Of a stretch of DNA of 64,000 nt, positions 23,884 through 60,396 are shown piece after piece. The stretch is from contig NC_134400.1 of NCBI RefSeq assembly GCF_050003625.1, positions 61,938,241 to 62,002,240 on the forward strand, written 5' to 3'. This DNA is from Haematobia irritans. Taxonomy: Eukaryota > Arthropoda > Insecta > Diptera > Muscidae. Positions within the stretch are counted from its first letter, which is position 1. Each line of letters opens with the position of its first letter. The position numbers and the translations under genes are program-made. The notes under the pieces are model-generated. The model did no database searches. It was not told the origin of the DNA and worked only from the letters and a program-made list of their open reading frames with translations.

Positions 23884-25909
23884 CTGTTAATTGTTTGTCA
23901 TCGTATATGGGTAGGGTTTTCTATGCTATGTTTATGTCATGTAAATGGAAAAGTAGTGCCAATCTGATTTCGTAAGAAACAAACGACATTAATATTTTCT
24001 AAGCCCACAATGCAACACTGTACCCCAAACTTCGAATTTTCGATTCGAACTTGATGCAATCTCTTTCTAAATATATACTTTGCCAAAGATATATGATTGT
24101 CCGTGGGGTTTATGTGGGTAAGTCAAAGAGTATATATTTAGAAAGAGATTGCATCAAGTTCGAATCGAAAATTCGAAGTTTGCGAGCTCAGTCCAACATT
24201 GGATCCCGTAACTTTTTGGGTACAGTGTTGTATTTTGGGTTTAGAGAAAATTAATGTCGTTTGTTTTTTACGAAATTGGATTGGCACATACATTTCATTA
24301 ACATAGCTTAGAATAGAAAAAAATGAGAAACAATTAAATAAATGAAATGTTAGTGCTCATGAAATGTTGCTACTGACCCTCCAAACATTCTGAGAGTCTT
24401 AGGATGGCTGATTCATTGGAATGACTATTTAAAGACTTCGACTGATGTTCAATTATGGATTAATTATCATCATGAGTAATTTTTTACTCTTTAGTTATTT
24501 AAAAATGTGACTTTCTCACTTTCATAACTCATTTTGTAGAATATTTTCTTCATCACTCAAGATTGTGTGATGAAACACATTAAAGAGTATATTCTTAATC
24601 TTTTTGTTTTAATATGCTGATTTTCAGAAGAAAAAAGCTAACGCTCATCAAACAAGCATACATGTAATTGATAAATCATCGTTTATTGTTTGCTTTGGTT
24701 TGACAATTTATATGTCTGAGAAATAGAATACATATTTTTTCAGTTGAATAAAATATGCTAACACAATAAGCCCATATCATTTATAATGCATTTTACGGAC
24801 ATGAAACAAATCAATAGTTACCATATTTTTTACGTTCTTTTCTTATTTGATATGTAATAATGCAAACTATTAGATAATAGAAAAAAATAAAAAAGAAAAC
24901 ATCACATGTAAAGACTCATGAACGAACATTTCTGCGAAATGCACAATCAATCACAAAAATGATTATTTAAAGAGTAATATGGATAAAAATCTTTTTGAGG
25001 GCACACATTCTTTATACAGAATACTCATATTTGACTCCGAAATGTTTATATAAAAGGAGTGCTACATCGATCACTAAAATGATTATTTAAAGACTCACTG
25101 AGGCAAATCGTTTTGAGGGCACAATTTCTTTATGCAAAATACTCATATCTGACTTAAAAATCATATCGCATATGATTGATTTATTCAGTTTGAAGAATCA
25201 TTTATGAGTCAAATGTGATTGAAAATGTTTGAAGGGGATGTTCCCATTTTGCATTTGGATATATGTGGATGTGCAGTAAGTAATGAGGTTTACAAATTCT
25301 CATTTCTCCTCTTGTGCTTATTTTATAAAGGTAACAAAAATCAAAATTGCAGTCCAAATTATAATAATAATAACTAATAATTATTATTTATGTGTATATA
25401 ATACAACAAAACAATTGGATTGAAATTGAAAATATTGGGATCTCAGAAAATAATATAGGTTATTTTTGAGAAACTATGCATGCATACATATACGGGTTAG
25501 CTGCTAATAGCTTTACATGAAAAAACGGCCAAAATCAAATCTTATCATTTTAATTCTCAATATATGGAAGTGTATGTGTGAAAATGTACCTTTATGCATA
25601 CGTTCTCCATATTGAAAAACTGCTCTTTCTCTCTCACTGCATGTTAACATTTATACACGAAACACTTAGAAACCATCATTTAAGCAAGAAAGACTATAAA
25701 AAATATCATATTTGTATGAAAAATACCATATTTGTATATGAAAACACGTACTTGTATTTGTAAATTTACTACTACATAGACAAGAACGGAAAATAAAATT
25801 GAATATCCATTCAAAAGTTCATATTTTAGTCATCTTCATCGTCGACCCTTCATCAGTCGTAATATTTTTTGGCTTTTGTATTCTCCGTATATATAAATAA
25901 TATATAAAA

Positions 25910-26134
25910 ATGAATTGTTTAGTGAAAAATTGCCCGGGAAAAACATCTCAAAACATTAAAATGTTCAGAATACCAAATAGGTATATTAAAAAATGGTGTT
26001 ATAATATTAAAGTGAACTACAAAGACTTAACACCATCTTCCCGTATATGTAGCCGTCATTTTCATAACGATTGCTTCGGACATGCAAAATTGAAAATTGG
26101 TTCTATGCCAACACAAGAATTAGGTAAATTTTAA
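25910..26134 (+). CDS. THAP-A zinc-finger exon (first exon, left arm of palindrome 1)
   Basis: A 74-codon frame whose protein has the THAP C2CH signature: Cys3 and Cys8 (MNCLVKNC), the FRIP proline segment at 19-22, Trp29, and the CSRH pair (Cys47, His50). THAP domains bind DNA and head P-superfamily transposases. A TATA-like run tatataaataatatataaaa immediately precedes the ATG. Near the end, gaattaggtaaat offers a splice donor, so the frame is probably a first exon and not a whole protein. It points toward the palindrome centre. No partner exon is proven; it could belong to the transposase or to a separate small repressor-like product. Identical frames sit at 32,759-32,535, 50,615-50,839 and 58,274-58,050. 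Confidence 0.7.
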   Translation: MNCLVKNCPGKTSQNIKMFRIPNRYIKKWCYNIKVNYKDLTPSSRICSRHFHNDCFGHAKLKIGSMPTQELGKF

Positions 26135-26534
26135 GATTTTATGTTATTATTAATATTAAGGTTATCAAATACTTATTTATTTTTATGTTTATACTTTGTG
26201 TAAAAAAAAATATGGTAATTAATTGTTTGGTTGTGGTTGTCTTTATTATATTAATCCAATTCGGTTAATATATAATTTCTAAATTTCGAAACTATTTTTA
26301 TTAAATTTTAACAATGTATACAATAATAACACCACCGTTTTTAGTCGTAGTTATTTTGTACGAACTATATCGTTGAATATTTTCCCTTTTGAAACATAAA
26401 AAGTATGATGCCATTTCTTCTGTAATTTTTTTTTAACTTTTCTTTAATTTGCTTTCCGTTTCTTCTTTGTTTGAAATATCATAATTTATATACGACTACA
26501 AAGACAAAAAAAACAAATTAATTTGGCCATCTTA

Positions 26535-27051
26535 CACTCAAAAAAAAGTGAACTCTCTATTTCACTAAAGCCATATTAACTTTATATTAGTTCATACAAT
26601 CATTATGTTTGGAAAAAGTTTATTTTAGTCAAATAATTGTTTGCGTATGTTAGTTAAATGAACTAAAAAACGGGAAAAAGTTATACACAAATAAAGCATA
26701 AAGATTTCCTAATTTCGTATTTCTTACAAAATAGTTCATTATTTCTTTAAATTTGTAAATTTTACCAAAAATGTGTCCATCATGAACTTCGTATGTCACT
26801 AAAGACATTCTTGCAATTTTGAACTCCAAGATTTCTCTTAAAACTACAAAATTTTCTTTAACTACTGAAAAAATTTAGTTATGTCTAATAAATTTTCTTG
26901 AATTTGTCGAAAAATATTTACTTATTTTTGCCATATCGGAGTGATGCCAGCGCTTGTAATACCGTTTAGTTAAAATTTTCTAAAAAAGTTCCAAATTTTC
27001 TAAAATTAATCGAAAGTTATCTTTCCTGGTGGGTTCACTGTTTTTTCAGTG
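26535..27051. mobile_element. 517-bp TA-flanked MITE inside the arm (CACTCAAAAAAAAGTGAAC ends)
   Basis: cactcaaaaaaaagtgaact and gttcactgttttttcagtg are imperfect inverted ends, flanked by TA at 26,533 and 27,052. Present in all four arms (31,618-32,134; about 51,240-51,756; about 57,133-57,649), so it predates the spread of the palindrome. Confidence 0.75.
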
Positions 27052-27591
27052 TACATCTCATCGTGTTACAGAATATATAAAATAAATTACAAAAATATAT
27101 TGTAAGACTTCATGTTTATAAATATTTTAATAATTATTTAGGATGGTGGCTAATTAATTTAAATTAATTAAAAAAACAAAATAAGAATACGACAACAATA
27201 TTCGAATTTTATATTCACAAGTATAAATGATTTTCAATGTAACTTTCTATATTCACTAAAAAAGAACGACTTTAATGTTTGTGTATTTATTTTTATTTTT
27301 ATTACAACTATAATAAAAACCATTAAATAAAAAATAATTTTTCGAATTACAACAATGTATATTAATTAAATTTAACCCTCAATTGTTGTTGGTAAATTTA
27401 AATATGATCATCATCTCAATACCTTGATTTTATACTTGAGAATAGCATCATTATTTTTATGGAATTTTTAATTTGTTCCTAGACCAACGAAGCGTTACAA
27501 ATAGTTCATTGGAAACATAATTATTGTTGAGATATTGTCCTCAAGTTGGAAAACTTGCTTGTTTTAGTGCAAAAATCATATTTTTTAAGGA

Positions 27592-27789
27592 TTATTGTTC
27601 CTTAGTAATATATTTGTTTTTACCAGTGTGATTTGATTTGAACTCTTTAACTGCTTTGTACAAGATTGGTATGATACACTGTTTTCTAAATAAATTCACA
27701 GCCTTTCCATTATATTTCACAAATAATATAAATAACTTATTGAGAATAACTCTTAAAAAGGTGTTTTCCCTCAGGACCAATTGCGTCAT
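27592..27789 (-). CDS. Unrecognised 65-codon frame in the arm, outward-pointing
   Basis: Encodes a basic peptide with MTQLVLRENTFLRVILNK at the start and KEFKSNHTGKNKYITKEQ at the end. I do not recognise it. It is conserved in all four arms (30,880-31,077; 52,297-52,494; 56,395-56,592) simply because the arms are near-identical, so conservation is no evidence of function. It could be a late exon of the transposase or chance. Confidence 0.3.
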   Translation of the reverse strand: MTQLVLRENTFLRVILNKLFILFVKYNGKAVNLFRKQCIIPILYKAVKEFKSNHTGKNKYITKEQ

Positions 27790-28100
27790 TTTCTTATGTC
27801 GTAATACTATTAGAAAATAATTAGTCCTGGTTTGGATTATTTAATCACATGTCAATTATTTTATTTGGTGGAAGAAGCTTAAATAAAATCGAAATTTAGG
27901 ATATTCATATTTAACAAATATTTGACAGATATCAAAAGTCGTTGCCATAATCATTCCAACAAACAAATTTAGCTCGCATTGAATATAAAAAAATGAAAAT
28001 GGAGTGTTCCCAAAATACCATTCAATAACTTACTCTCGTCAAATATTTGCTCAATGTGACATTACCCTAGGCTTCAATACAGTGCCTTTAAGTAATTACA

Positions 28101-28605
28101 CCCAAAGATTTTTAATTACACCCAAAGAAATTTGTTAGTAGGGACAGCAGAAAAGTCTGCTAAAACAGCAGAAAGTCTGCTGAAAAAGGGACAGCAGCCA
28201 CTGTTTGCTGAAATAGCAAACATTTTCTGCTGTTTTTTAAGCTCGATTACACTAAAACATATTTTATTTTGGCTGAAACAAATAAAAATGTTAACTTGAG
28301 AGCTATCCGAACATAATTAAAAAAATAGTTTATGAATATCTATGTGTTTGACCAAAAATGTGAATATTTATCGAATTGAGGCATAACAGCAAACAAAATA
28401 TTTGCTGATCGTATTTAGGAGCTTCTATGTATATTACAGTGTAAAAAAATATACCAAAAACTACTTTTGTTTCTTAAATAGGCTTTGGGGAAATTTTTAT
28501 AACCTAAAAATTTTATAAATTGTTGTTCATTAGGCCCTGAAGTACAAAAATATAACAGCAGACATCGACTGCGCTTTGTAGCAGACTTTTTTCTATGAGT
28601 GTAAA
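28101..28605. mobile_element. MITE in the arm with GCAGACTTTTCTGCTG repeats
   Basis: Right-arm counterpart 30,066-30,548 starts CACTCATAGAAAAAAGTCTG and ends TTTCTTTGGGTG, flanked by TA; the short tttgggtgtaatt end is doubled. Interior words cagcagaaagtctgctg are short palindromes. Confidence 0.65.
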
Positions 28606-29093
28606 TATAGTTTAATCTAAATATCTAAATCAAAATATCTTAATCTAAATCAATTTTCTGTGATCCTCTCCATTCCAAAGACTATAGGTTGTCATAGTTG
28701 AAATTCGGAACACATCCCAAAACTGCTCATGATTCGCTTGAACGGTTAACAGCAGCGAGGTTGTTAGTCTTCGTAATTTAGCTACACTGCCTGAAAATAA
28801 ACAAGACATTTTTTGTTATTAATATTCAAATTAATAAAAAATTCGCTTCTTGTACCATCTTTCAAGAGAATCGGATACAAGAGCTTCAAGAGTGCTTAAT
28901 AAATCAAATATTAGGAAAGAGTTTATATGGTAGTTATATTTAATTGTTGACCGATTCTGTTCATATTGAGTCACAATCTATATATAAGAAGAATAATTTT
29001 TGCAAATCAAAGTATACATGTACATGTTAGGTTCGGATACCAATAATTTATAATGTTATTTTAATTCCTTCTGTAATTTTAATAAAAATATAC

Positions 29094-29470
29094 ATGATTT
29101 CATCATGCATAGGTCACAGCGCTGAAGAAGGGCTCTTTCAACCCAACTTTTCCACTTATATTGTTGAAAAAGAGCGCCGAAGAATATGTTGTGTTGGGGG
29201 ATGCAGTTCATCAAGTCCGCCAAGCAAATTATATTCATTTCCTATAAACGAAGAAATTCGGGAGTCATGGATATCTGTTTGTTCGGTAGACGACGAAATG
29301 CTACAATTAAAAAATTTGTATATATGCGAACGACATTTCCGCAAAGAAATGCTTGGTAAAACCCGTCTTCGTCGAAATGCATTTCCAACATTAAATTTGT
29401 ATGATGAAGGGGATTATACAAACGAAGATTTGGAAAATATTTGTTTGGAATTTGAAACCACTGGAAATAA
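29094..29470 (+). pseudogene. THAP-B domain and start of P-superfamily transposase (truncated, palindrome 1)
   Basis: Frame begins in the left arm and runs into the 274-bp loop. The protein has a THAP C2CH finger: Cys33 and Cys37 (CCVGGC), FPINEE around 49-54, Trp59, Cys78 and His81 (YICERHF), then LRRNAFPTLNL, the usual THAP C-terminal AVPTIF-like box. After GNN the frame enters the opposite arm and becomes antisense nonsense, so nothing after the DNA-binding domain remains. A short peptide of this kind could still bind element ends and act as a repressor; this is speculative. The same region is more complete at 55,088-54,012. Confidence 0.8.
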
Positions 29471-29876
29471 CAACACAACATATTCTTCGGCGCTCTTTTT
29501 CAACAATATAAGTGGAAAAGTTGGGTTGAAAGAGCCCTTCTTCAGCGCTGTGACCTATGCATGATGAAATCATGTATATTTTTATTAAAATTACAGAAGG
29601 AATTAAAATAACATTATAAATTATTGGTATCCGAACCTAACATGTACATGTATACTTTGATTTGCAAAAATTATTCTTCTTATATATAGATTGTGACTCA
29701 ATATGAACAGAATCGGTCAACAATTAAATATAACTACCATATAAACTCTTTCCTAATATTTGATTTATTAAGCACTCTTGAAGCTCTTGTATCCGATTCT
29801 CTTGAAAGATGGTACAAGAAGCGAATTTTTTATTAATTTGAATATTAATAACAAAAAATGTCTTGTTTATTTTCAG

Positions 29877-30022
29877 GCAGTGTAGCTAAATTACGAAGAC
29901 TAACAACCTCGCTGCTGTTAACCGTTCAAGCGAATCATGAGCAGTTTTGGGATGTGTTCCGAATTTCAACTATGACAACCTATAGTCTTTGGAATGGAGA
30001 GGATCACAGAAAATTGATTTAG
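29877..30022 (+). CDS. Candidate terminal exon after a strong splice acceptor (outward)
   Basis: tcttgtttattttcag is a good splice acceptor. It is followed by a 47-codon open frame (KLRRLTTSLLLTVQANHEQF and on to DHRKLI) ending in TAG. It points outward, so a transcript starting at THAP-A/B in one arm and crossing the loop would meet it in the other arm, as a last exon of the transposase would. Copy 2 equivalent: 55,392-55,537. I cannot name its domain. Confidence 0.4.
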
Positions 30023-32534
30023 ATTAAGATATTTTGATTTAGATATTTAGATTAAACTATATTTACACTCATAGAAAAAAGTCTGCTACAAAGCGCAGTC
30101 GATGTCTGCTGTTATATTTTTGTACTTCAGGGCCTAATGAACAACAATTTATAAAATTTTTAGGTTATAAAAATTTCCCCAAAGCCTATTTAAGAAACAA
30201 AAGTAGTTTTTGGTATATTTTTTTACACTGTAATATACATAGAAGCTCCTAAATACGATCAGCAAATATTTTGTTTGCTGTTATGCCTCAATTCGATAAA
30301 TATTCACATTTTTGGTCAAACACATAGATATTCATAAACTATTTTTTTAATTATGTTCGGATAGCTCTCAAGTTAACATTTTTATTTGTTTCAGCCAAAA
30401 TAAAATATGTTTTAGTGTAATCGAGCTTAAAAAACAGCAGAAAATGTTTGCTATTTCAGCAAACAGTGGCTGCTGTCCCTTTTTCAGCAGACTTTCTGCT
30501 GTTTTAGCAGACTTTTCTGCTGTCCCTACTAACAAATTTCTTTGGGTGTAATTAAAAATCTTTGGGTGTAATTACTTAAAGGCACTGTATTGAAGCCTAG
30601 GGTAATGTCACATTGAGCAAATATTTGACGAGAGTAAGTTATTGAATGGTATTTTGGGAACACTCCATTTTCATTTTTTTATATTCAATGCGAGCTAAAT
30701 TTGTTTGTTGGAATGATTATGGCAACGACTTTTGATATCTGTCAAATATTTGTTAAATATGACCATATCCTAAATTTCGATTTTATTTAAGCTTCTTCCA
30801 CCAAATAAAATAATTGACATGTGATTAAATAATCCAAACCAGGACTAATTATTTTCTAATAGTATTACGACATAAGAAAATGACGCAATTGGTCCTGAGG
30901 GAAAACACCTTTTTAAGAGTTATTCTCAATAAGTTATTTATATTATTTGTGAAATATAATGGAAAGGCTGTGAATTTATTTAGAAAACAGTGTATCATAC
31001 CAATCTTGTACAAAGCAGTTAAAGAGTTCAAATCAAATCACACTGGTAAAAACAAATATATTACTAAGGAACAATAATCCTTAAAAAATATGATTTTTGC
31101 ACTAAAACAAGCAAGTTTTCCAACTTGAGGACAATATCTCAACAATAATTATGTTTCCAATGAACTATTTGTAACGCTTCGTTGGTCTAGGAACAAATTA
31201 AAAATTCCATAAAAATAATGATGCTATTCTCAAGTATAAAATCAAGGTATTGAGATGATGATCATATTTAAATTTACCAACAACAATTGAGGGTTAAATT
31301 TAATTAATATACATTGTTGTAATTCGAAAAATTATTTTTTATTTAATGGTTTTTATTATAGTTGTAATAAAAATAAAAATAAATACACAAACATTAAAGT
31401 CGTTCTTTTTTAGTGAATATAGAAAGTTACATTGAAAATCATTTATACTTGTGAATATAAAATTCGAATATTGTTGTCGTATTCTTATTTTGTTTTTTTA
31501 ATTAATTTAAATTAATTAGCCACCATCCTAAATAATTATTAAAATATTTATAAACATGAAGTCTTACAATATATTTTTGTAATTTATTTTATATATTCTG
31601 TAACACGATGAGATGTACACTGAAAAAACAGTGAACCCACCAGGAAAGATAACTTTCGATTAATTTTAGAAAATTTGGAACTTTTTTAGAAAATTTTAAC
31701 TAAACGGTATTACAAGCGCTGGCATCACTCCGATATGGCAAAAATAAGTAAATATTTTTCGACAAATTCAAGAAAATTTATTAGACATAACTAAATTTTT
31801 TCAGTAGTTAAAGAAAATTTTGTAGTTTTAAGAGAAATCTTGGAGTTCAAAATTGCAAGAATGTCTTTAGTGACATACGAAGTTCATGATGGACACATTT
31901 TTGGTAAAATTTACAAATTTAAAGAAATAATGAACTATTTTGTAAGAAATACGAAATTAGGAAATCTTTATGCTTTATTTGTGTATAACTTTTTCCCGTT
32001 TTTTAGTTCATTTAACTAACATACGCAAACAATTATTTGACTAAAATAAACTTTTTCCAAACATAATGATTGTATGAACTAATATAAAGTTAATATGGCT
32101 TTAGTGAAATAGAGAGTTCACTTTTTTTTGAGTGTAAGATGGCCAAATTAATTTGTTTTTTTTGTCTTTGTAGTCGTATATAAATTATGATATTTCAAAC
32201 AAAGAAGAAACGGAAAGCAAATTAAAGAAAAGTTAAAAAAAAATTACAGAAGAAATGGCATCATACTTTTTATGTTTCAAAAGGGAAAATATTCAACGAT
32301 ATAGTTCGTACAAAATAACTACGACTAAAAACGGTGGTGTTATTATTGTATACATTGTTAAAATTTAATAAAAATAGTTTCGAAATTTAGAAATTATATA
32401 TTAACCGAATTGGATTAATATAATAAAGACAACCACAACCAAACAATTAATTACCATATTTTTTTTTACACAAAGTATAAACATAAAAATAAATAAGTAT
32501 TTGATAACCTTAATATTAATAATAACATAAAATC

Positions 32535-32759
32535 TTAAAATTTACCTAATTCTTGTGTTGGCATAGAACCAATTTTCAATTTTGCATGTCCGAAGCAATC
32601 GTTATGAAAATGACGGCTACATATACGGGAAGATGGTGTTAAGTCTTTGTAGTTCACTTTAATATTATAACACCATTTTTTAATATACCTATTTGGTATT
32701 CTGAACATTTTAATGTTTTGAGATGTTTTTCCCGGGCAATTTTTCACTAAACAATTCAT
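32535..32759 (-). CDS. THAP-A zinc-finger exon (right arm of palindrome 1)
   Basis: Exact inverted counterpart of the exon at 25,910-26,134, with the same C2CH residues, the same upstream TATA-like run and the same putative splice donor. Confidence 0.7.
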   Translation of the reverse strand: MNCLVKNCPGKTSQNIKMFRIPNRYIKKWCYNIKVNYKDLTPSSRICSRHFHNDCFGHAKLKIGSMPTQELGKF

Positions 32760-34545
32760 TTTTATATATTATTTATATATACGGAGAATACAAAAGCCAA
32801 AAAATATTACGACTGATGAAGGGTCGACGATGAAGATGACTAAAATATGAACTTTTGAATGGATATTCAATTTTATTTTCCGTTCTTGTCTATGTAGTAG
32901 TAAATTTACAAATACAAGTACGTGTTTTCATATACAAATATGGTATTTTTCATACAAATATGATATTTTTTATAGTCTTTCTTGCTTAAATGATGGTTTC
33001 TAAGTGTTTCGTGTATAAATGTTAACATGCAGTGAGAGAGAAAGAGCAGTTTTTCAATATGGAGAACGTATGCATAAAGGTACATTTTCACACATACACT
33101 TCCATATATTGAGAATTAAAATGATAAGATTTGATTTTGGCCGTTTTTTCATGTAAAGCTATTAGCAGCTAACCCGTATATGTATGCATGCATAGTTTCT
33201 CAAAAATAACCTATATTATTTTCTGAGATCCCAATATTTTCAATTTCAATCCAATTGTTTTGTTGTATTATATACACATAAATAATAATTATTAGTTATT
33301 ATTATTATAATTTGGACTGCAATTTTGATTTTTGTTACCTTTATAAAATAAGCACAAGAGGAGAAATGAGAATTTGTAAACCTCATTACTTACTGCACAT
33401 CCACATATATCCAAATGCAAAATGGGAACATCCCCTTCAAACATTTTCAATCACATTTGACTCATAAATGATTCTTCAAACTGAATAAATCAATCATATG
33501 CGATATGATTTTTAAGTCAGATATGAGTATTTTGCATAAAGAAATTGTGCCCTCAAAACGATTTGCCTCAGTGAGTCTTTAAATAATCATTTTAGTGATC
33601 GATGTAGCACTCCTTTTATATAAACATTTCGGAGTCAAATATGAGTATTCTGTATAAAGAATGTGTGCCCTCAAAAAGATTTTTATCCATATTACTCTTT
33701 AAATAATCATTTTTGTGATTGATTGTGCATTTCGCAGAAATGTTCGTTCATGAGTCTTTACATGTGATGTTTTCTTTTTTATTTTTTTCTATTATCTAAT
33801 AGTTTGCATTATTACATATCAAATAAGAAAAGAACGTAAAAAATATGGTAACTATTGATTTGTTTCATGTCCGTAAAATGCATTATAAATGATATGGGCT
33901 TATTGTGTTAGCATATTTTATTCAACTGAAAAAATATGTATTCTATTTCTCAGACATATAAATTGTCAAACCAAAGCAAACAATAAACGATGATTTATCA
34001 ATTACATGTATGCTTGTTTGATGAGCGTTAGCTTTTTTCTTCTGAAAATCAGCATATTAAAACAAAAAGATTAAGAATATACTCTTTAATGTGTTTCATC
34101 ACACAATCTTGAGTGATGAAGAAAATATTCTACAAAATGAGTTATGAAAGTGAGAAAGTCACATTTTTAAATAACTAAAGAGTAAAAAATTACTCATGAT
34201 GATAATTAATCCATAATTGAACATCAGTCGAAGTCTTTAAATAGTCATTCCAATGAATCAGCCATCCTAAGACTCTCAGAATGTTTGGAGGGTCAGTAGC
34301 AACATTTCATGAGCACTAACATTTCATTTATTTAATTGTTTCTCATTTTTTTCTATTCTAAGCTATGTTAATGAAATGTATGTGCCAATCCAATTTCGTA
34401 AAAAACAAACGACATTAATTTTCTCTAAACCCAAAATACAACACTGTACCCAAAAAGTTACGGGATCCAATGTTGGACTGAGCTCGCAAACTTCGAATTT
34501 TCGATTCGAACTTGATGCAATCTCTTTCTAAATATATACTCTTTG

Positions 34546-34735
34546 AATTAACACACCTAATCTAATTTTCTAATGACACGTAAGCGCCATCTAGTAACAT
34601 ATTTGTTTAACATGTCTATATTATAAATCTATGTTTGATAGCGGCGTTGTACTTTATAAAGGTCTGCATCGAATAACTTTTCACTACATGTATGCAATTC
34701 GCTGTCGAGTGTGGGTAGGGTTGCCATAATAGAAT
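34546..34735. repeat. Repeat shared with 62,228-62,412
   Basis: Runs such as cgtaagcgccatctagtaac, ggtctgcatcgaataacttt and gggtagggttgcca match the second site in order and orientation. Family unknown. Confidence 0.7.
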
Positions 34736-36206
34736 CATAGATTTAGCAAACAAAAGCAATTTTTTAATTTCAACATAACTAAAATATAATATTGCAGAAC
34801 ACGCCTTCTATTATTTCCAAGTCATCAGCCGTAAAAAAACAGGTTGCGTGTTGACTCTAAACTGTGTTTTTTGACAGGTTTGCCAGGTGATTCCCCCCAA
34901 ATAGTAGAAAAAAACCCATTAATTGTTCTACATTTGTTTTAAAAACTCCCATTTTTTGATGTAATTAGACACATAATGTTCTTCTACATTTTATTAAAAA
35001 ATCCAGTTTAAAAATCCAAATTATAATGGATACTTCGAAGTAAAAAATATTTTCTTATCCTAAAATTTAGGTTGCGTAATCTTTAATAATACGTAAATAT
35101 TTTTCAGTGTACACTTCAAAAACTCAATTTAATAAAAATATATTAATATGTATTTCCATTTAAATAGCACGTAAAATAAAATAATTCAAGGTATAAATAA
35201 TTGAGATGAAATTAATTTAAAAAATTTATAAGTGAAATTTGGGTTAATGAAATTCAGAAAAATAAAATTCAGTAAATAAACAAGAATACAATTCTTTGCA
35301 TAAACAAAAAAATTCACTAATAAACTCAGTAAATTAAAAAAAAAATATTCACCAAACGAATCCAAAATTTCTAGGTCTTCTGCAGTTTCAGTATACAATT
35401 TTTTTTGATTTAAATAATTGAATCATATTACTTTTCGGAGTAAAATTATGACACCCACCATTTAATGAATATTTTACTCCTAAAATACTTTCAGCTGTTG
35501 AAGTTAATAACCGATTTCTTAATTTGTTTTTAATTGAAAACGTCCTTTCAACAGAAGCATTTGAAAAGGGTAGCGAAAATAATGATAATGCCAATTTACT
35601 TATATTTCGGAACATGGGTTGACCTCCCGCATCTTGTTTTTCCCTAACTTCTTTCCAAAATTATTCCGAATTTAGTTGGGAATTGTTCCATTTTATTAGG
35701 TGTAGATTGTTCCACTCGTTTATAGTCTCATCAATGTCTTTAACGATATTTTTAAAGTGAACAACAACTTCAGTTATATCAGGTTTATTTGATTTTTGTG
35801 CATTATCGGGTGAAAATAATGAAATTTTTTGAAATTTAAATAATTGAATCATATTACTTGTAGGAGTAAAATTATGACACCCACCATTTAATGAATATTT
35901 TACTCCTAAAATACTTTCAGCTGTTGAAGTTAACAACCGATTTCATAATTTGTTTTTAATTACGCTGAACATTGAAGACGCCCTTTCAACAGAAGCATTT
36001 GAAAAGGGTAGCGAAAATATTGATAATGCCAATTTACTTATATTTCGGAACTTGGGTTGACCTCCCGCATCTTGTTTTTCCCTAGCTTCTTTCCAAAATT
36101 GTTCCTAATTTATTTGGGAATTGTTCCATTTTATTAGGTGTAGATTGTTCTACTCGTTTATAGTCTCATCAATGTCGTTAATGATACTTTTAAAGTGAAC
36201 AAAAAC
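34736..36206 (-). pseudogene. hAT transposase C-terminal pseudogene, copy Y, with a 426-bp tandem duplication
   Basis: Paralogue of 16,090-17,100: same 5' flank (agaatcatagatttagcaaa) and the same hAT dimerisation signature (SLFSLPFSNASVERTFS at 35,615-35,388). Within it, about 35,411-35,836 is repeated in tandem from 35,837 (taaataattgaatcatatta starts both units), so two copies of the ASVER region exist, both broken. The gene is then cut at 36,206 by a hAT MITE and resumes at 44,707. Confidence 0.8.
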
Positions 36207-46080: not shown

Positions 46081-46082
46081 TA

Positions 46083-47801: not shown

Positions 47802-47921
47802 GGTTTTAAATGAAAAACTTTAAAAAATTTAAATTGAACAATGATAAATTTTGTGCAATAAATAAAAAAATACATTTTCTCACTTATTCCAAGATATCCA
47901 ACTCTTAATTTCTTTTTATTT

Positions 47922-48665: not shown

Positions 48666-48669
48666 ACTC

Positions 48670-48821: not shown

Positions 48822-48828
48822 TACATAT

Positions 48829-51800
48829 CAAAGAGTATATATTTAGAAAGAGATTGCATCAAGTTCGAATCGAAAATTCGAAGTTTGCGAGCTCAGTCCA
48901 ACATTGGATCCCGTAACTTTTTGGGTACAGTGTTGTATTTTGGGTTTAGAGAAAATTAATGTCGTTTGTTTTTTACGAAATTGGATTGGCACATACATTT
49001 CATTAACATAGCTTAGAATAGAAAAAAATGAGAAACAATTAAATAAATGAAATGTTAGTGCTCATGAAATGTTGCTACTGACCCTCCAAACATTCTGAGA
49101 GTCTTAGGATGGCTGATTCATTGGAATGACTATTTAAAGACTTCGACTGATGTTCAATTATGGATTAATTATCATCATGAGTAATTTTTTACTCTTTAGT
49201 TATTTAAAAATGTGACTTTCTCACTTTCATAACTCATTTTGTAGAATATTTTCTTCATCACTCAAGATTGTGTGATGAAACACATTAAAGAGTATATTCT
49301 TAATCTTTTTGTTTTAATATGCTGATTTTCAGAAGAAAAAAGCTAACGCTCATCAAACAAGCATACATGTAATTGATAAATCATCGTTTATTGTTTGCTT
49401 TGGTTTGACAATTTATATGTCTGAGAAATAGAATACATATTTTTTCAGTTGAATAAAATATGCTAACACAATAAGCCCATATCATTTATAATGCATTTTA
49501 CGGACATGAAACAAATCAATAGTTACCATATTTTTTACGTTCTTTTCTTATTTGATATGTAATAATGCAAACTATTAGATAATAGAAAAAAATAAAAAAG
49601 AAAACATCACATGTAAAGACTCATGAACGAACATTTCTGCGAAATGCACAATCAATCACAAAAATGATTATTTAAAGAGTAATATGGATAAAAATCTTTT
49701 TGAGGGCACACATTCTTTATACAGAATACTCATATTTGACTCCGAAATGTTTATATAAAAGGAGTGCTACATCGATCACTAAAATGATTATTTAAAGACT
49801 CACTGAGGCAAATCGTTTTGAGGGCACAATTTCTTTATGCAAAATACTCATATCTGACTTAAAAATCATATCGCATATGATTGATTTATTCAGTTTGAAG
49901 AATCATTTATGAGTCAAATGTGATTGAAAATGTTTGAAGGGGATGTTCCCATTTTGCATTTGGATATATGTGGATGTGCAGTAAGTAATGAGGTTTACAA
50001 ATTCTCATTTCTCCTCTTGTGCTTATTTTATAAAGGTAACAAAAATCAAAATTGCAGTCCAAATTATAATAATAATAACTAATAATTATTATTTATGTGT
50101 ATATAATACAACAAAACAATTGGATTGAAATTGAAAATATTGGGATCTCAGAAAATAATATAGGTTATTTTTGAGAAACTATGCATGCATACATATACGG
50201 GTTAGCTGCTAATAGCTTTACATGAAAAAACGGCCAAAATCAAATCTTATCATTTTAATTCTCAATATATGGAAGTGTATGTGTGAAAATGTACCTTTAT
50301 GCATACGTTCTCCATATTGAAAAACTGCTCTTTCTCTCTCACTGCATGTTAACATTTATACACGAAACACTTAGAAACCATCATTTAAGCAAGAAAGACT
50401 ATAAAAAATATCATATTTGTATGAAAAATACCATATTTGTATATGAAAACACGTACTTGTATTTGTAAATTTACTACTACATAGACAAGAACGGAAAATA
50501 AAATTGAATATCCATTCAAAAGTTCATATTTTAGTCATCTTCATCGTCGACCCTTCATCAGTCGTAATATTTTTTGGCTTTTGTATTCTCCGTATATATA
50601 AATAATATATAAAAATGAATTGTTTAGTGAAAAATTGCCCGGGAAAAACATCTCAAAACATTAAAATGTTCAGAATACCAAATAGGTATATTAAAAAATG
50701 GTGTTATAATATTAAAGTGAACTACAAAGACTTAACACCATCTTCCCGTATATGTAGCCGTCATTTTCATAACGATTGCTTCGGACATGCAAAATTGAAA
50801 ATTGGTTCTATGCCAACACAAGAATTAGGTAAATTTTAAGATTTTATGTTATTATTAATATTAAGGTTATCAAATACTTATTTATTTTTATGTTTATACT
50901 TTGTGTAAAAAAAAATATGGTAATTAATTGTTTGGTTGTGGTTGTCTTTATTATATTAATCCAATTCGGTTAATATATAATTTCTAAATTTCGAAACTAT
51001 TTTTATTAAATTTTAACAATGTATACAATAATAACACCACCGTTTTTAGTCGTAGTTATTTTGTACGAACTATATCGTTGAATATTTTCCCTTTTGAAAC
51101 ATAAAAAGTATGATGCCATTTCTTCTGTAATTTTTTTTTAACTTTTCTTTAATTTGCTTTCCGTTTCTTCTTTGTTTGAAATATCATAATTTATATACGA
51201 CTACAAAGACAAAAAAAACAAATTAATTTGGCCATCTTACACTCAAAAAAAAGTGAACTCTCTATTTCACTAAAGCCATATTAACTTTATATTAGTTCAT
51301 ACAATCATTATGTTTGGAAAAAGTTTATTTTAGTCAAATAATTGTTTGCGTATGTTAGTTAAATGAACTAAAAAACGGGAAAAAGTTATACACAAATAAA
51401 GCATAAAGATTTCCTAATTTCGTATTTCTTACAAAATAGTTCATTATTTCTTTAAATTTGTAAATTTTACCAAAAATGTGTCCATCATGAACTTCGTATG
51501 TCACTAAAGACATTCTTGCAATTTTGAACTCCAAGATTTCTCTTAAAACTACAAAATTTTCTTTAACTACTGAAAAAATTTAGTTATGTCTAATAAATTT
51601 TCTTGAATTTGTCGAAAAATATTTACTTATTTTTGCCATATCGGAGTGATGCCAGCGCTTGTAATACCGTTTAGTTAAAATTTTCTAAAAAAGTTCCAAA
51701 TTTTCTAAAATTAATCGAAAGTTATCTTTCCTGGTGGGTTCACTGTTTTTTCAGTGTACATCTCATCGTGTTACAGAATATATAAAATAAATTACAAAAA

Positions 51801-54036
51801 TATATTGTAAGACTTCATGTTTATAAATATTTTAATAATTATTTAGGATGGTGGCTAATTAATTTAAATTAATTAAAAAAACAAAATAAGAATACGACAA
51901 CAATATTCGAATTTTATATTCACAAGTATAAATGATTTTCAATGTAACTTTCTATATTCACTAAAAAAGAACGACTTTAATGTTTGTGTATTTATTTTTA
52001 TTTTTATTACAACTATAATAAAAACCATTAAATAAAAAATAATTTTTCGAATTACAACAATGTATATTAATTAAATTTAACCCTCAATTGTTGTTGGTAA
52101 ATTTAAATATGATCATCATCTCAATACCTTGATTTTATACTTGAGAATAGCATCATTATTTTTATGGAATTTTTAATTTGTTCCTAGACCAACGAAGCGT
52201 TACAAATAGTTCATTGGAAACATAATTATTGTTGAGATATTGTCCTCAAGTTGGAAAACTTGCTTGTTTTAGTGCAAAAATCATATTTTTTAAGGATTAT
52301 TGTTCCTTAGTAATATATTTGTTTTTACCAGTGTGATTTGATTTGAACTCTTTAACTGCTTTGTACAAGATTGGTATGATACACTGTTTTCTAAATAAAT
52401 TCACAGCCTTTCCATTATATTTCACAAATAATATAAATAACTTATTGAGAATAACTCTTAAAAAGGTGTTTTCCCTCAGGACCAATTGCGTCATTTTCTT
52501 ATGTCGTAATACTATTAGAAAATAATTAGTCCTGGTTTGGATTATTTAATCACATGTCAATTATTTTATTTGGTGGAAGAAGCTTAAATAAAATCGAAAT
52601 TTAGGATATTCATATTTAACAAATATTTGACAGATATCAAAAGTCGTTGCCATAATCATTCCAACAAACAAATTTAGCTCGCATTGAATATAAAAAAATG
52701 AAAATGGAGTGTTCCCAAAATACCATTCAATAACTTACTCTCGTCAAATATTTGCTCAATGTGACATTACCCTAGGCTTCAATACAGTGCCTTTAAGTAA
52801 TTACACCCAAAGATTTTTAATTACACCCAAAGAAATTTGTTAGTAGGGACAGCAGAAAAGTCTGCTAAAACAGCAGAAAGTCTGCTGAAAAAGGGACAGC
52901 AGCCACTGTTTGCTGAAATAGCAAACATTTTCTGCTGTTTTTTAAGCTCGATTACACTAAAACATATTTTATTTTGGCTGAAACAAATAAAAATGTTAAC
53001 TTGAGAGCTATCCGAACATAATTAAAAAAATAGTTTATGAATATCTATGTGTTTGACCAAAAATGTGAATATTTATCGAATTGAGGCATAACAGCAAACA
53101 AAATATTTGCTGATCGTATTTAGGAGCTTCTATGTATATTACAGTGTAAAAAAATATACCAAAAACTACTTTTGTTTCTTAAATAGGCTTTGGGGAAATT
53201 TTTATAACCTAAAAATTTTATAAATTGTTGTTCATTAGGCCCTGAAGTACAAAAATATAACAGCAGACATCGACTGCGCTTTGTAGCAGACTTTTTTCTA
53301 TGAGTGTAAATATAGTTTAATCTAAATATCTAAATCAAAATATCTTAATCTAAATCAATTTTCTGTGATCCTCTCCATTCCAAAGACTATAGGTTGTCAT
53401 AGTTGAAATTCGGAACACATCCCAAAACTGCTCATGATTCGCTTGAACGGTTAACAGCAGCGAGGTTGTTAGTCTTCGTAATTTAGCTACACTGCCTGAA
53501 AATAAACAAGACATTTTTTGTTATTAATATTCAAATTAATAAAAAATTCGCTTCTTGTACCATCTTTCAAGAGAATCGGATACAAGAGCTTCAAGAGTGC
53601 TTAATAAATCAAATATTAGGAAAGAGTTTATATGGTAGTTATATTTAATTGTTGACCGATTCTGTTCATATTGAGTCACAATCTATATATAAGAAGAATA
53701 ATTTTTGCAAATCAAAGTATACATGTACATGTTAGGTTCGGATACCAATAATTTATAATGTTATTTTAATTCCTTCTGTAATTTTAATAAAAATATACAT
53801 GATTTCATCATGCATAGGTCACAGCGCTGAAGAAGGGCTCTTTCAACCCAACTTTTCCACTTATATTGTTGAAAAAGAGCGCCGAAGAATATGTTGTGTT
53901 GGGGGATGCAGTTCATCAAGTCCGCCAAGCAAATTATATTCATTTCCTATAAACGAAGAAATTCGGGAGTCATGGATATCTGTTTGTTCGGTAGACGACG
54001 AAATGCTACAATTAAAAAATTTGTATATATGCGAAC
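48829..54036 (+). repeat. Left arm of palindrome 2 (5208 bp)
   Basis: As far as compared, identical to the left arm of palindrome 1 over 24,124-29,196, then 132 bp longer toward the centre. Complement of 54,851-60,060. Confidence 0.9.
50615..50839 (+). CDS. THAP-A zinc-finger exon (left arm of palindrome 2)
   Basis: Identical to the exon at 25,910-26,134, including the TATA-like run upstream and the gaattaggtaaat donor. Confidence 0.7.
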   Translation: MNCLVKNCPGKTSQNIKMFRIPNRYIKKWCYNIKVNYKDLTPSSRICSRHFHNDCFGHAKLKIGSMPTQELGKF

Positions 54037-55088
54037 TTTTCCTGCGGCCTTGTTTGTCCGTTGGCCATCTCCATAATCTTCAAAACCGTCAATCTTATCG
54101 GATTTTGAATTGTATTCCAATTCACAACGAATCGAAATTTCGTCCAATAAAATAATGCAATTTTTTCGTTATTGCTGAATGTCTTGGCCATTTGCTTCAA
54201 TGCCTTCTCTATTTCTTTGTTAATGCCCGGTTCCAATTTTTTAACTGGGCTCCAGCGATATAATGTTGATAATGACGGCATGTTAAAGTTTAATTCTGTT
54301 ATCATATATTTATACAGCTTTGATGAAATGTAGTTCATGTTTTGAAAAACATTTTTCAATTTCTCTGATACAACAACTTGCCTTTTTTTGTTTAAAATAA
54401 CCCGAGCGAATTCTACAATAACTTCATTGGCGCCGTCTGTCGCTATATATGTTTGTTTTATTTCGGACATTTCCTTTGCCAATAATTTCAAATTTGTTTG
54501 CATTTTTGTAATCGTCAATTCTTGTTCTTTGTATTTTGCTTCCATATCATATATTTTCTTCTGCAATTGATAACACTTTTTTCTATAAAAATCTTCATTT
54601 TTGCTAAATTTTTGACATTTCTTGCAAAAAGGTGCTTCTATTAATATATTGGATCTTTGTGACTCTATGCATGAGCTTATTGCATCATTAGAAGCATTTA
54701 TTGGAAAATTGTTATTTCCAGTGGTTTCAAATTCCAAACAAATATTTTCCAAATCTTCGTTTGTATAATCCCCTTCATCATACAAATTTAATGTTGGAAA
54801 TGCATTTCGACGAAGACGGGTTTTACCAAGCATTTCTTTGCGGAAATGTCGTTCGCATATATACAAATTTTTTAATTGTAGCATTTCGTCGTCTACCGAA
54901 CAAACAGATATCCATGACTCCCGAATTTCTTCGTTTATAGGAAATGAATATAATTTGCTTGGCGGACTTGATGAACTGCATCCCCCAACACAACATATTC
55001 TTCGGCGCTCTTTTTCAACAATATAAGTGGAAAAGTTGGGTTGAAAGAGCCCTTCTTCAGCGCTGTGACCTATGCATGATGAAATCAT
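54012..55088 (-). pseudogene. P-superfamily (THAP9-like) transposase, N-terminal two-thirds, frameshifted
   Basis: A 358-codon frame starting in the right arm and crossing the loop. Residues 31-95: THAP C2CH finger (Cys33, Cys37, Cys78, His81). Around 140-215: a Cys pair (CKKC) and a long coiled coil (LQKKIYDMEAKYKEQELTIT). Around 230-330: the P-element-type segment with NMPSLSTLYRW and LEPGINKEIEKALKQM, close to the conserved LPS..TL.RW...L.PG order of P and THAP9 proteins. The expected acidic catalytic start follows in another frame: LLDEISIRCELEYN then DKIDGFEDYG (about 54,145-54,050, minus strand). A one-base shift lies near 54,145-54,165. The rest of the catalytic core is deleted where the loop meets the left arm at 54,036. 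Confidence 0.88.
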
Positions 55089-55391
55089 GTATATTTTTAT
55101 TAAAATTACAGAAGGAATTAAAATAACATTATAAATTATTGGTATCCGAACCTAACATGTACATGTATACTTTGATTTGCAAAAATTATTCTTCTTATAT
55201 ATAGATTGTGACTCAATATGAACAGAATCGGTCAACAATTAAATATAACTACCATATAAACTCTTTCCTAATATTTGATTTATTAAGCACTCTTGAAGCT
55301 CTTGTATCCGATTCTCTTGAAAGATGGTACAAGAAGCGAATTTTTTATTAATTTGAATATTAATAACAAAAAATGTCTTGTTTATTTTCAG

Positions 55392-55537
55392 GCAGTGTAG
55401 CTAAATTACGAAGACTAACAACCTCGCTGCTGTTAACCGTTCAAGCGAATCATGAGCAGTTTTGGGATGTGTTCCGAATTTCAACTATGACAACCTATAG
55501 TCTTTGGAATGGAGAGGATCACAGAAAATTGATTTAG
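55392..55537 (+). CDS. Candidate terminal exon (right arm of palindrome 2)
   Basis: Same acceptor (tttattttcag) and 47-codon frame as 29,877-30,022. Here the transposase frame of the loop runs the other way, so in this copy the matching partner would be the left-arm mirror at about 53,490-53,345 on the minus strand. Confidence 0.35.
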
Positions 55538-58049
55538 ATTAAGATATTTTGATTTAGATATTTAGATTAAACTATATTTACACTCATAGAAAAAAGTCTG
55601 CTACAAAGCGCAGTCGATGTCTGCTGTTATATTTTTGTACTTCAGGGCCTAATGAACAACAATTTATAAAATTTTTAGGTTATAAAAATTTCCCCAAAGC
55701 CTATTTAAGAAACAAAAGTAGTTTTTGGTATATTTTTTTACACTGTAATATACATAGAAGCTCCTAAATACGATCAGCAAATATTTTGTTTGCTGTTATG
55801 CCTCAATTCGATAAATATTCACATTTTTGGTCAAACACATAGATATTCATAAACTATTTTTTTAATTATGTTCGGATAGCTCTCAAGTTAACATTTTTAT
55901 TTGTTTCAGCCAAAATAAAATATGTTTTAGTGTAATCGAGCTTAAAAAACAGCAGAAAATGTTTGCTATTTCAGCAAACAGTGGCTGCTGTCCCTTTTTC
56001 AGCAGACTTTCTGCTGTTTTAGCAGACTTTTCTGCTGTCCCTACTAACAAATTTCTTTGGGTGTAATTAAAAATCTTTGGGTGTAATTACTTAAAGGCAC
56101 TGTATTGAAGCCTAGGGTAATGTCACATTGAGCAAATATTTGACGAGAGTAAGTTATTGAATGGTATTTTGGGAACACTCCATTTTCATTTTTTTATATT
56201 CAATGCGAGCTAAATTTGTTTGTTGGAATGATTATGGCAACGACTTTTGATATCTGTCAAATATTTGTTAAATATGACCATATCCTAAATTTCGATTTTA
56301 TTTAAGCTTCTTCCACCAAATAAAATAATTGACATGTGATTAAATAATCCAAACCAGGACTAATTATTTTCTAATAGTATTACGACATAAGAAAATGACG
56401 CAATTGGTCCTGAGGGAAAACACCTTTTTAAGAGTTATTCTCAATAAGTTATTTATATTATTTGTGAAATATAATGGAAAGGCTGTGAATTTATTTAGAA
56501 AACAGTGTATCATACCAATCTTGTACAAAGCAGTTAAAGAGTTCAAATCAAATCACACTGGTAAAAACAAATATATTACTAAGGAACAATAATCCTTAAA
56601 AAATATGATTTTTGCACTAAAACAAGCAAGTTTTCCAACTTGAGGACAATATCTCAACAATAATTATGTTTCCAATGAACTATTTGTAACGCTTCGTTGG
56701 TCTAGGAACAAATTAAAAATTCCATAAAAATAATGATGCTATTCTCAAGTATAAAATCAAGGTATTGAGATGATGATCATATTTAAATTTACCAACAACA
56801 ATTGAGGGTTAAATTTAATTAATATACATTGTTGTAATTCGAAAAATTATTTTTTATTTAATGGTTTTTATTATAGTTGTAATAAAAATAAAAATAAATA
56901 CACAAACATTAAAGTCGTTCTTTTTTAGTGAATATAGAAAGTTACATTGAAAATCATTTATACTTGTGAATATAAAATTCGAATATTGTTGTCGTATTCT
57001 TATTTTGTTTTTTTAATTAATTTAAATTAATTAGCCACCATCCTAAATAATTATTAAAATATTTATAAACATGAAGTCTTACAATATATTTTTGTAATTT
57101 ATTTTATATATTCTGTAACACGATGAGATGTACACTGAAAAAACAGTGAACCCACCAGGAAAGATAACTTTCGATTAATTTTAGAAAATTTGGAACTTTT
57201 TTAGAAAATTTTAACTAAACGGTATTACAAGCGCTGGCATCACTCCGATATGGCAAAAATAAGTAAATATTTTTCGACAAATTCAAGAAAATTTATTAGA
57301 CATAACTAAATTTTTTCAGTAGTTAAAGAAAATTTTGTAGTTTTAAGAGAAATCTTGGAGTTCAAAATTGCAAGAATGTCTTTAGTGACATACGAAGTTC
57401 ATGATGGACACATTTTTGGTAAAATTTACAAATTTAAAGAAATAATGAACTATTTTGTAAGAAATACGAAATTAGGAAATCTTTATGCTTTATTTGTGTA
57501 TAACTTTTTCCCGTTTTTTAGTTCATTTAACTAACATACGCAAACAATTATTTGACTAAAATAAACTTTTTCCAAACATAATGATTGTATGAACTAATAT
57601 AAAGTTAATATGGCTTTAGTGAAATAGAGAGTTCACTTTTTTTTGAGTGTAAGATGGCCAAATTAATTTGTTTTTTTTGTCTTTGTAGTCGTATATAAAT
57701 TATGATATTTCAAACAAAGAAGAAACGGAAAGCAAATTAAAGAAAAGTTAAAAAAAAATTACAGAAGAAATGGCATCATACTTTTTATGTTTCAAAAGGG
57801 AAAATATTCAACGATATAGTTCGTACAAAATAACTACGACTAAAAACGGTGGTGTTATTATTGTATACATTGTTAAAATTTAATAAAAATAGTTTCGAAA
57901 TTTAGAAATTATATATTAACCGAATTGGATTAATATAATAAAGACAACCACAACCAAACAATTAATTACCATATTTTTTTTTACACAAAGTATAAACATA
58001 AAAATAAATAAGTATTTGATAACCTTAATATTAATAATAACATAAAATC

Positions 58050-58274
58050 TTAAAATTTACCTAATTCTTGTGTTGGCATAGAACCAATTTTCAATTTTGC
58101 ATGTCCGAAGCAATCGTTATGAAAATGACGGCTACATATACGGGAAGATGGTGTTAAGTCTTTGTAGTTCACTTTAATATTATAACACCATTTTTTAATA
58201 TACCTATTTGGTATTCTGAACATTTTAATGTTTTGAGATGTTTTTCCCGGGCAATTTTTCACTAAACAATTCAT
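58050..58274 (-). CDS. THAP-A zinc-finger exon (right arm of palindrome 2)
   Basis: Fourth identical copy of the THAP-A exon. In this palindrome it is on the same strand as, and about 3 kb upstream of, the THAP-B/transposase frame at 55,088-54,012, so THAP-A could splice toward it. Confidence 0.7.
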   Translation of the reverse strand: MNCLVKNCPGKTSQNIKMFRIPNRYIKKWCYNIKVNYKDLTPSSRICSRHFHNDCFGHAKLKIGSMPTQELGKF

Positions 58275-60396
58275 TTTTATATATTATTTATATATACGGA
58301 GAATACAAAAGCCAAAAAATATTACGACTGATGAAGGGTCGACGATGAAGATGACTAAAATATGAACTTTTGAATGGATATTCAATTTTATTTTCCGTTC
58401 TTGTCTATGTAGTAGTAAATTTACAAATACAAGTACGTGTTTTCATATACAAATATGGTATTTTTCATACAAATATGATATTTTTTATAGTCTTTCTTGC
58501 TTAAATGATGGTTTCTAAGTGTTTCGTGTATAAATGTTAACATGCAGTGAGAGAGAAAGAGCAGTTTTTCAATATGGAGAACGTATGCATAAAGGTACAT
58601 TTTCACACATACACTTCCATATATTGAGAATTAAAATGATAAGATTTGATTTTGGCCGTTTTTTCATGTAAAGCTATTAGCAGCTAACCCGTATATGTAT
58701 GCATGCATAGTTTCTCAAAAATAACCTATATTATTTTCTGAGATCCCAATATTTTCAATTTCAATCCAATTGTTTTGTTGTATTATATACACATAAATAA
58801 TAATTATTAGTTATTATTATTATAATTTGGACTGCAATTTTGATTTTTGTTACCTTTATAAAATAAGCACAAGAGGAGAAATGAGAATTTGTAAACCTCA
58901 TTACTTACTGCACATCCACATATATCCAAATGCAAAATGGGAACATCCCCTTCAAACATTTTCAATCACATTTGACTCATAAATGATTCTTCAAACTGAA
59001 TAAATCAATCATATGCGATATGATTTTTAAGTCAGATATGAGTATTTTGCATAAAGAAATTGTGCCCTCAAAACGATTTGCCTCAGTGAGTCTTTAAATA
59101 ATCATTTTAGTGATCGATGTAGCACTCCTTTTATATAAACATTTCGGAGTCAAATATGAGTATTCTGTATAAAGAATGTGTGCCCTCAAAAAGATTTTTA
59201 TCCATATTACTCTTTAAATAATCATTTTTGTGATTGATTGTGCATTTCGCAGAAATGTTCGTTCATGAGTCTTTACATGTGATGTTTTCTTTTTTATTTT
59301 TTTCTATTATCTAATAGTTTGCATTATTACATATCAAATAAGAAAAGAACGTAAAAAATATGGTAACTATTGATTTGTTTCATGTCCGTAAAATGCATTA
59401 TAAATGATATGGGCTTATTGTGTTAGCATATTTTATTCAACTGAAAAAATATGTATTCTATTTCTCAGACATATAAATTGTCAAACCAAAGCAAACAATA
59501 AACGATGATTTATCAATTACATGTATGCTTGTTTGATGAGCGTTAGCTTTTTTCTTCTGAAAATCAGCATATTAAAACAAAAAGATTAAGAATATACTCT
59601 TTAATGTGTTTCATCACACAATCTTGAGTGATGAAGAAAATATTCTACAAAATGAGTTATGAAAGTGAGAAAGTCACATTTTTAAATAACTAAAGAGTAA
59701 AAAATTACTCATGATGATAATTAATCCATAATTGAACATCAGTCGAAGTCTTTAAATAGTCATTCCAATGAATCAGCCATCCTAAGACTCTCAGAATGTT
59801 TGGAGGGTCAGTAGCAACATTTCATGAGCACTAACATTTCATTTATTTAATTGTTTCTCATTTTTTTCTATTCTAAGCTATGTTAATGAAATGTATGTGC
59901 CAATCCAATTTCGTAAAAAACAAACGACATTAATTTTCTCTAAACCCAAAATACAACACTGTACCCAAAAAGTTACGGGATCCAATGTTGGACTGAGCTC
60001 GCAAACTTCGAATTTTCGATTCGAACTTGATGCAATCTCTTTCTAAATATATACTCTTTGTACATATGCCCTAAGCAGTGTTGCCAACTCCCTAAGGCAC
60101 CAAACATATATTATAAATTCTAACATAACATACCACTTCCCACCACAAAATCGAAAATTAAATGCTCTACTAAAAAATATCCGTATTATAGATCTTTTGT
60201 GTATTGAATTTGTAATTTTATGAAGTTCGGAAACTTCTTAGCCTACCACAAAAAGCGCGGTATAAACAGACAAAAGTTAAGTGTTTTGGAAACTTCCATC
60301 TCTGTTATGAACACATGTTAAATTTTGTTTCGATCTGGCAACTCCTTCATATAGAAATATGTGTTCAAAAAAGACACATCCGCAATTTTTTTTACA

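Follow-up and report, generated by a model that had tools for sequence, protein, structure and literature searches.

What are the two very large palindromes in a 64,000-nucleotide stretch of the Haematobia irritans genome (NC_134400.1, positions 61,938,241 to 62,002,240; hereafter the window), and how did they come to be? Comparison of the window with itself showed that both, copy 1 (24124–34545) and copy 2 (48829–60060), are near-perfect palindromes. Set beside related copies elsewhere in the genome, they led us to a reading to which we give a probability of roughly 55%: P-superfamily transposons would have a self-propagating form, the head-to-head palindrome with two transposase genes, which originates when the 5′ half is copied over the 3′ half, is mobilised by transposase at two 5′ ends, and stays uniform in its arms through conversion. 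This form would have arisen at least twice (families A and B), and perhaps three times (family C), in one genome. Copies 1 and 2, which belong to family A, are very probably recently shortened, non-autonomous derivatives of a palindromic P-superfamily transposon of about 25 kb.

Copy 1 consists of a left arm of 5,073 bp (24124–29196, plus strand, with the element 5′ end at 24124), a loop of 274 bp (29197–29470), into which a THAP coding stretch runs on, and an inverted right arm of 5,075 bp (29471–34545, minus strand). Copy 2 has arms of 5,208 bp (48829–54036, plus strand) and 5,210 bp (54851–60060, inverted, minus strand) around a loop of 814 bp (54037–54850) that carries transposase N-terminal coding sequence on the minus strand. 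All of these coordinates match those of a preliminary description of the window, as does its statement that the two copies start and end alike: CAAAGAGTATATATTTAG opens both and its complement closes both. The sole arm-to-arm difference within either copy is one GG indel, with GG located in the right arms (30763–30764 and 56278–56279, minus strand) and missing from the left arms at 27904/27905 in copy 1 and 52609/52610 in copy 2. Across the common length, the two left arms are identical to each other, and so are the two right arms. Exact inverted runs of 3,781 bp occur in the window palindromes, whereas the longest exact inverted word was 16–18 bp in five first-order Markov shuffles of the window. 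Each arm set contains two THAP coding stretches (PF05485, E = 2e-12 and 2.3e-11), confirming the THAP sequence previously noted in the arms; the first lies at 25910–26131 in the left arm of copy 1 and, shifted by 24705, at 50615–50836 in that of copy 2 (both plus strand).

We searched the host genome (1.17 Gb in 181 contigs) with 2 kb of the arm, obtaining 62 matches with 40 of 140 candidates scored. The longest family-A copy among the matches listed, C3:45043235–45068526, is 25,292 bp from end to end and has the same termini as the window copies. Covered in three contiguous pieces, it is a palindrome with BLAST arms of 12,456 bp (99.76%) and a loop of about 402 bp. Each arm has an open frame of 927 codons (906 from the first ATG) that is identical in both arms; in the layout predicted from the sequence, two 5′ ends face outward and two identical transposase genes converge on a centre of about 400 bp. 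From the window alone it could not be seen that copies 1 and 2 are shortened, or that a 25-kb copy, the longest found, carries a complete transposase gene in each of its arms. About 3 kb upstream of the C3 transposase frame, the arm contains another THAP coding stretch, the first of the two in arm order, which ends in GTAAAT, which by the splice rule we take to be donor-like, making splicing putative. Dispersed genome repeats are also present inside the C3 arm, at about 254–1113 (many places, 77–99%) and 10548–10893 (79–93%).

The C3 transposase matched PF21787 (9.9e-31), PF21788 (3e-20), PF05485 (1.6e-12), and PF21789 (1.7e-6), its domains being THAP, RNase H N-terminal, GTP-binding insertion, and RNase H C-terminal; the P-type helix-turn-helix (HTH; PF12017) remained under the cut-off (E = 0.043). 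Among solved structures at E ≤ 0.01, the single relative was the P transposase 6p5a (2.3e-17), with which the D, D, and E motifs align; these were matched by motif to the residues named in PMC7776569, with the chain numbering taken over unverified. These matches, made with a C3 copy of the same family, uphold the earlier assignment of the window copies to the P superfamily. A protein homologue search with 7434 candidates returned none at E ≤ 0.001, and no Galileo or 1360 transposase was among its results.

Mapped onto the C3 arm, copy 1 is positions 1–5341 joined to inverted 5064–1 with a 3-bp overlap (junction 29471–29473), and copy 2 is positions 1–5199 joined to inverted 6018–1 with a 4-bp overlap (junction 54033–54036). 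Since these junctions are unlike, neither copy arose from the other by deletion alone. Of the arms compared, only the left arms of copies 1 and 2 lack the GG, which the C3 arm and two C2 copies (L012 and L013) have. On the simplest reading of these sequences, copies 1 and 2 would be independent internal deletions of one already palindromic parent with distinguishable arms. Divergence between the window and C3 arms is 1.47% over arm positions 3308–4756 and, counting gaps, 1.9–2.2% over whole arms. Codons 1–309 of the copy 2 transposase show three synonymous and no replacement changes relative to C3, followed by a frame shift. Copy 1 can encode a THAP-only truncated transposase of 156 amino acids (29094–29564, plus strand), and copy 2 a product of 358 amino acids (54012–55088, minus strand) with THAP and an N-terminal region but no catalytic domain; the latter frame has a weak HTH match (0.021, under the Pfam cut-off) and, past the junction, shifts and then stops. 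A left-arm frame of copy 2 (53799–54155, plus strand, 118 amino acids, offset by 24705 from copy 1) is cut inside THAP. The two predicted products appear comparable in kind to KP, the 207-amino-acid truncated P product of an internal deletion derivative in D. melanogaster (PMC7776569).

We considered whether assembly fold-back or chimeric reads could have made the palindromes. The arms are nearly identical, as such an artefact would have them, and the 25-kb length of the C3 copy exceeds many read lengths. However, the window copies are merely 10.4 and 11.2 kb, the GG indel between their arms is common to both, and a target-site duplication (TSD) lies outside both termini of copy 2. In addition, an old C2 copy, described below, has arms that are about 5% diverged and flank the same centre with different insertions, and one end of a family-B palindrome is made up of a remnant plus TSD. 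An artefact is thus highly improbable.

The family-A terminal 35-mer was found at 31 genome sites at ≤3 mismatches (12 exact), with none for the reversed control, which disposes of the earlier concern that other copies with the same termini might be absent. Six of these sites are the ends of the three full palindromes, five are ends in the copies C2a, C2b, C2c, C2d, and C3b, and 20 are unread; since the latter include two pairs in inverted orientation, 1.2 and 3.0 kb apart, shorter two-ended family-A members probably exist. As previously described, TACATAT borders copy 2 on the left (48822–48828) and right (60061–60067), forming a 7-bp TSD; random 7-mer pairs from fetched genome flanks were equal in 53 of 200,000 draws. 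Its place directly at the copy 2 termini supports the earlier view of the palindrome as a mobile unit. TSDs of 7 or 8 bp are those of the P superfamily; that of family A has 7 bp, and that of family B has 8 bp outside a 24-bp remnant. The sole family-A TSD (n = 1) differs from the Galileo consensus GTAGTAC/GTATTAC. Copy 1 is flanked by GGTAAGT and AATTAAC, and no flanking 7- or 8-mer is repeated within 400 bp of it; the same holds for the C3 copy, and neither has a TSD.

The latter two copies bear on another explanation, namely that ectopic recombination or the insertion of hybrid elements turned ordinary elements into palindromes, each where it now lies, and that none transposes in palindromic form. 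Such immobile by-products would account for the copies without a TSD and agree with in situ formation in family B (below) and with the extended-TIR copies of Galileo (TIR, terminal inverted repeat), which have been explained by recombination (PMC3573991). Conversely, a product formed in situ leaves a 3′ remnant within the TSD, whereas that of copy 2 lies directly at both 5′ termini; both window copies have the same one-sided GG deletion and no substitution; and C2c and the C3 copy have one common centre. We consider this explanation unlikely.

In a search with the inner C3 arm (10266–12266; 40 of 2364 candidates scored, mostly dispersed-repeat rows), the full-length matches among those listed were confined to the two C3 arms, and partial matches lay at two C2 loci. 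C2c and C2d (C2:101.0 and 101.25 Mb, 256 kb apart) are duplicates of each other, 99.7% alike over the longest piece of 16 kb, and were therefore counted as one copy; the segmental duplication itself (L030–L036, L018, and L019) bears this old palindromic family-A copy. In C2c/C2d, left-arm positions 4580–4756 are joined to 11915–12456, the centre follows, and in the right arm 11915 is joined to 4756. Both C2c arms have identical junction letters, which recur in C2a and C2b, for each of which one arm was found. The C2c centre is continuous with the C3 centre (717 bp aligned, 96.7%). Between the two C2c arms, identity is 95.5% over 335 bp, 94.7% over 247 bp, and 80% over a further 50-bp piece; since they are only about 95% alike, the C2c palindrome is not new. 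Most simply, one deletion in both arms with the centre kept would have been copied from arm to arm, or have arisen during arm pairing; alternatively, fold-back could have happened twice, independently, at the same base. The C3 arms become ragged beyond arm position 12,397; before that point they differ at seven small places, all within the outer 2.4 kb. The probability of such clustering under a uniform distribution, computed after the pattern was seen, is about 1e-5, although flattening of the inner arms by the assembler could also produce it. The C2c loop orientation was rejected as proof of recombination because an oppositely inserted palindrome gives the same picture. C2a and C2b were also considered as halves of a copy split by one inversion at the centre, with which their orientation does not fit.

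A search of the genome with the transposase protein gave 71 matches (50 of 271 candidates scored). Among the matches listed, two further transposases occur as inverted open-frame pairs, both on C5: family B (932 codons, convergent, 38% identical to A) and family C (886 codons, divergent, 30% identical to A). D316, D406, and E636 are invariant in all three aligned families. Family B, like family A, has THAP, RNase H, and GTP-binding matches above the Pfam cut-off; for family C, the Pfam search found RNase H and GTP-binding domains and no THAP match. The family-C locus (C5:145484001–145506626, L038) is an outward-facing inverted pair with arms of at least 7.5 kb and a 100-bp gap between the matched pieces; its element ends are unbounded, and it may not be a transposon palindrome. 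Long stop-free frames without an inverted partner among the matches listed lie at C2:141.0, C4:213.4, C1:89.8, C1:136.5, and C5:83.3 Mb, and family-B frames of this kind at C5:16.75 and C2:124.74 Mb; the palindromic arrangement is therefore not general.

The family-B palindrome (C5:12250338–12269093, 18,756 bp) suggests how such a form could be born. A search placed its right arm (7,818 bp matched, 100% as rounded). The right 5′ terminus is followed outward by 24 bp and ACGCATCG, and the left terminus is directly bordered by ACGCATCG as well; the order is thus ACGCATCG, element, 24-bp remnant, ACGCATCG, with an 8-bp TSD. An ordinary family-B copy at C5:16749862 agrees with the palindrome over about 8.4 kb (outer 663 bp 100%, the rest 100% as rounded), and an ordinary copy on C2 is 98% alike. 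Both ordinary copies continue through the arm into the loop segment and then into a common 3′ region (260-bp alignment); for the C5 copy, 1,002 bp were compared, and the other part of the loop segment was compared by eye over about 40 bp. The nine genome sites of the 24-mer at ≤1 mismatch (control, 0) include the 3′ sides of the two ordinary copies; in the one on C5 it is repeated as a tandem pair. GTCTATG is common to the family-B 5′ terminus and the 3′ unit, and the inverted copy ends there. Our reading is that an ordinary element within an 8-bp duplication had its 3′ part overwritten in situ by an inverted 5′ arm. The ordinary and palindromic sequences diverge at about position 7799 of L037, with no clear microhomology there; a 16-bp inverted repeat proposed as the fold-back primer was rejected on closer sequence comparison. 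Such a birth would agree with the Galileo TIR-growth model, in which TIR1 is copied over TIR2 (PMC3573991), scaled to a whole gene, and the locus, in preserving the passage from an ordinary element to a palindrome, makes that model directly testable.

The preliminary description held that the terminal repeats of known P elements measure tens of bases and that no element of this form had been described. Galileo, a member of the P superfamily, has TIRs of 0.5–1.2 kb (PMC3688188), with a maximum of about 1.25 kb in D. mojavensis (PMC3573991). In D. willistoni, Galileo copy 112 (9,021 bp) has TIRs of 4,246 and 4,680 bp without the transposase segment, and copy 147 has >500 bp of transposase within its TIRs (PMC4168063). 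Since TIRs of up to 4.2/4.7 kb are published for the superfamily, the claim of novelty fails in that form and was wrong in kind. Like Galileo (Foldback-like; D. willistoni copies 112 and 147 and the D. mojavensis 2RT class), family A has a P-superfamily transposase, long TIRs (hundreds of bp or more), and a 7-bp TSD (7 or 8 bp in D. willistoni Galileo; PMC4168063); also alike are TIRs extended by an inverted copy of internal sequence and chimeric copies without a matching TSD (PMC4168063; PMC3573991). In contrast, the 12.4-kb arms here each have an open transposase frame, which the longest of the Galileo TIRs cited here lack, and, unlike the published TIRs (about 1.25 kb; 4.2/4.7 kb), the palindromic parent here left derivatives. 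Galileo is further marked by a conserved terminus of about 40 bp and by a transposase group distinct from P and 1360. Set beside it by published description, Galileo appears to be the closest kind, with membership unproven.

These likenesses raise the possibility that only stepwise TIR growth of the Galileo type took place, the transposase being caught in the arms by accident and unused. The superfamily and the kind of change are the same, and the transposase sequence in D. willistoni copy 147 and the long TIRs of copy 112 (PMC4168063) fit this account. However, whole open transposase frames are found in both arms of the C3 copy and of family B, the 309 codons compared between lineages contain three synonymous and no replacement changes, and the family-B arm of about 8.5 kb was inverted whole, with a nearly identical ordinary copy elsewhere. 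We therefore regard unused, accidental capture as doubtful and prefer the self-propagating palindrome.

Several points weigh against that preference. A TSD is present in only one of the three full family-A palindromes (copy 2) and in neither copy 1 nor the C3 copy, although these absences fit later ectopic exchange. No ordinary, non-palindromic family-A copy with a transposase was found among the matches listed in the arm, inner-arm, and protein searches, which leaves family B as the sole family with evidence of the birth. Neither copy 1 nor the C3 copy is accompanied by a remnant of the family-B kind, their flanking 7-/8-mers not being repeated within 400 bp. The inner 10 kb of the C3 arms could have been flattened by the assembler, the second family-B arm was sequence-compared at its two ends only, and birth and conversion are histories reconstructed from sequence. 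The ordinary C5 family-B copy has no TSD, and a random 8-mer recurred within 43 bp in 101 of 20,000 draws from repeat-rich flanks, and part of the case for the family-B TSD is hence that it sits immediately after the 24-mer.

A self-propagating palindrome could arise as follows. If an ordinary element broke within its 3′ part, repair would copy the 5′ arm by fold-back or template switching, and the product, with two 5′ termini, would be cut and pasted by a P-type transposase. Its arms would be held alike by arm-to-arm gene conversion or by repair during arm pairing, and incomplete repair after excision would remove the centre, yielding copies such as 1 and 2, which may repress through truncated THAP proteins or hairpin RNA. 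The snap-back of the arms as DNA and the long double-stranded RNA suggested in the preliminary description would likewise be possible effects. A similar case comes from another superfamily: maize Mu killer and MuDR belong to Mutator. Mu killer is a partial inverted duplication of the MuDR transposase gene between two copies of the same TIR (PMC3440606), a structure like that seen here, although hairpin silencing has been proposed for Mu killer and for the window copies is inference only. By analogy with Mu killer and KP, which palindromic derivatives with a 5′ transposase part resemble, the birth of the palindrome may also create the element's own silencers. Genomic inverted duplications have likewise been attributed to fold-back (PMC3907307, PMC10622511); unlike these, the duplication here lies inside a transposon and is bounded by its own 5′ terminus.

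D. melanogaster P and KP resemble family A in their THAP and RNase H/GTP-binding transposase, internal deletions, and truncated product, but P has 31-bp TIRs, an 8-bp TSD, and unlike ends with 9- versus 21-bp spacing (PMC7776569), whereas both ends here are the same 5′ sequence and the family-A ends are identical over >5 kb. P-element end pairing has been described as asymmetric, and the two spacings have been likened to V(D)J 12/23 signals (PMC7776569). If our reading is true, nature would offer a test of this asymmetric end-pairing rule in a P-type element that moves although its two ends are the same 5′ sequence. In a limited literature search, with most subscription papers outside it, an open transposase gene per arm, the spread of a 5′–5′ element, and recurrence in one genome were not found in print.

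The window contains further repeats around the palindromes. Immediately left of copy 1 lies a 1-kb inverted-repeat element (22886–23886) with arms of about 400 bp (98%); a related end sequence, 73% alike to its arm end, occupies 23939–24079, and two related element ends stand head to head at about 21626–21634 (21518–21824), both without their final bases. On its right side, copy 2 is bordered by repeats (60229–62409) that reappear piecewise beside copy 1 (34546–34726) and beside the C3 copy, which could reflect either an insertion preference or plain abundance. Arrays of a tandem repeat of about 153 bp (9332–12692, 4859–6176, 42342–43056, and 43524–44172) have relatives adjoining the C3 copy. 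A 438-bp repeat is present in about two copies at 35397–36207, with a related stretch at 16603–17021, and a 297-bp tandem duplication at 7037–7630 is 100% identical.

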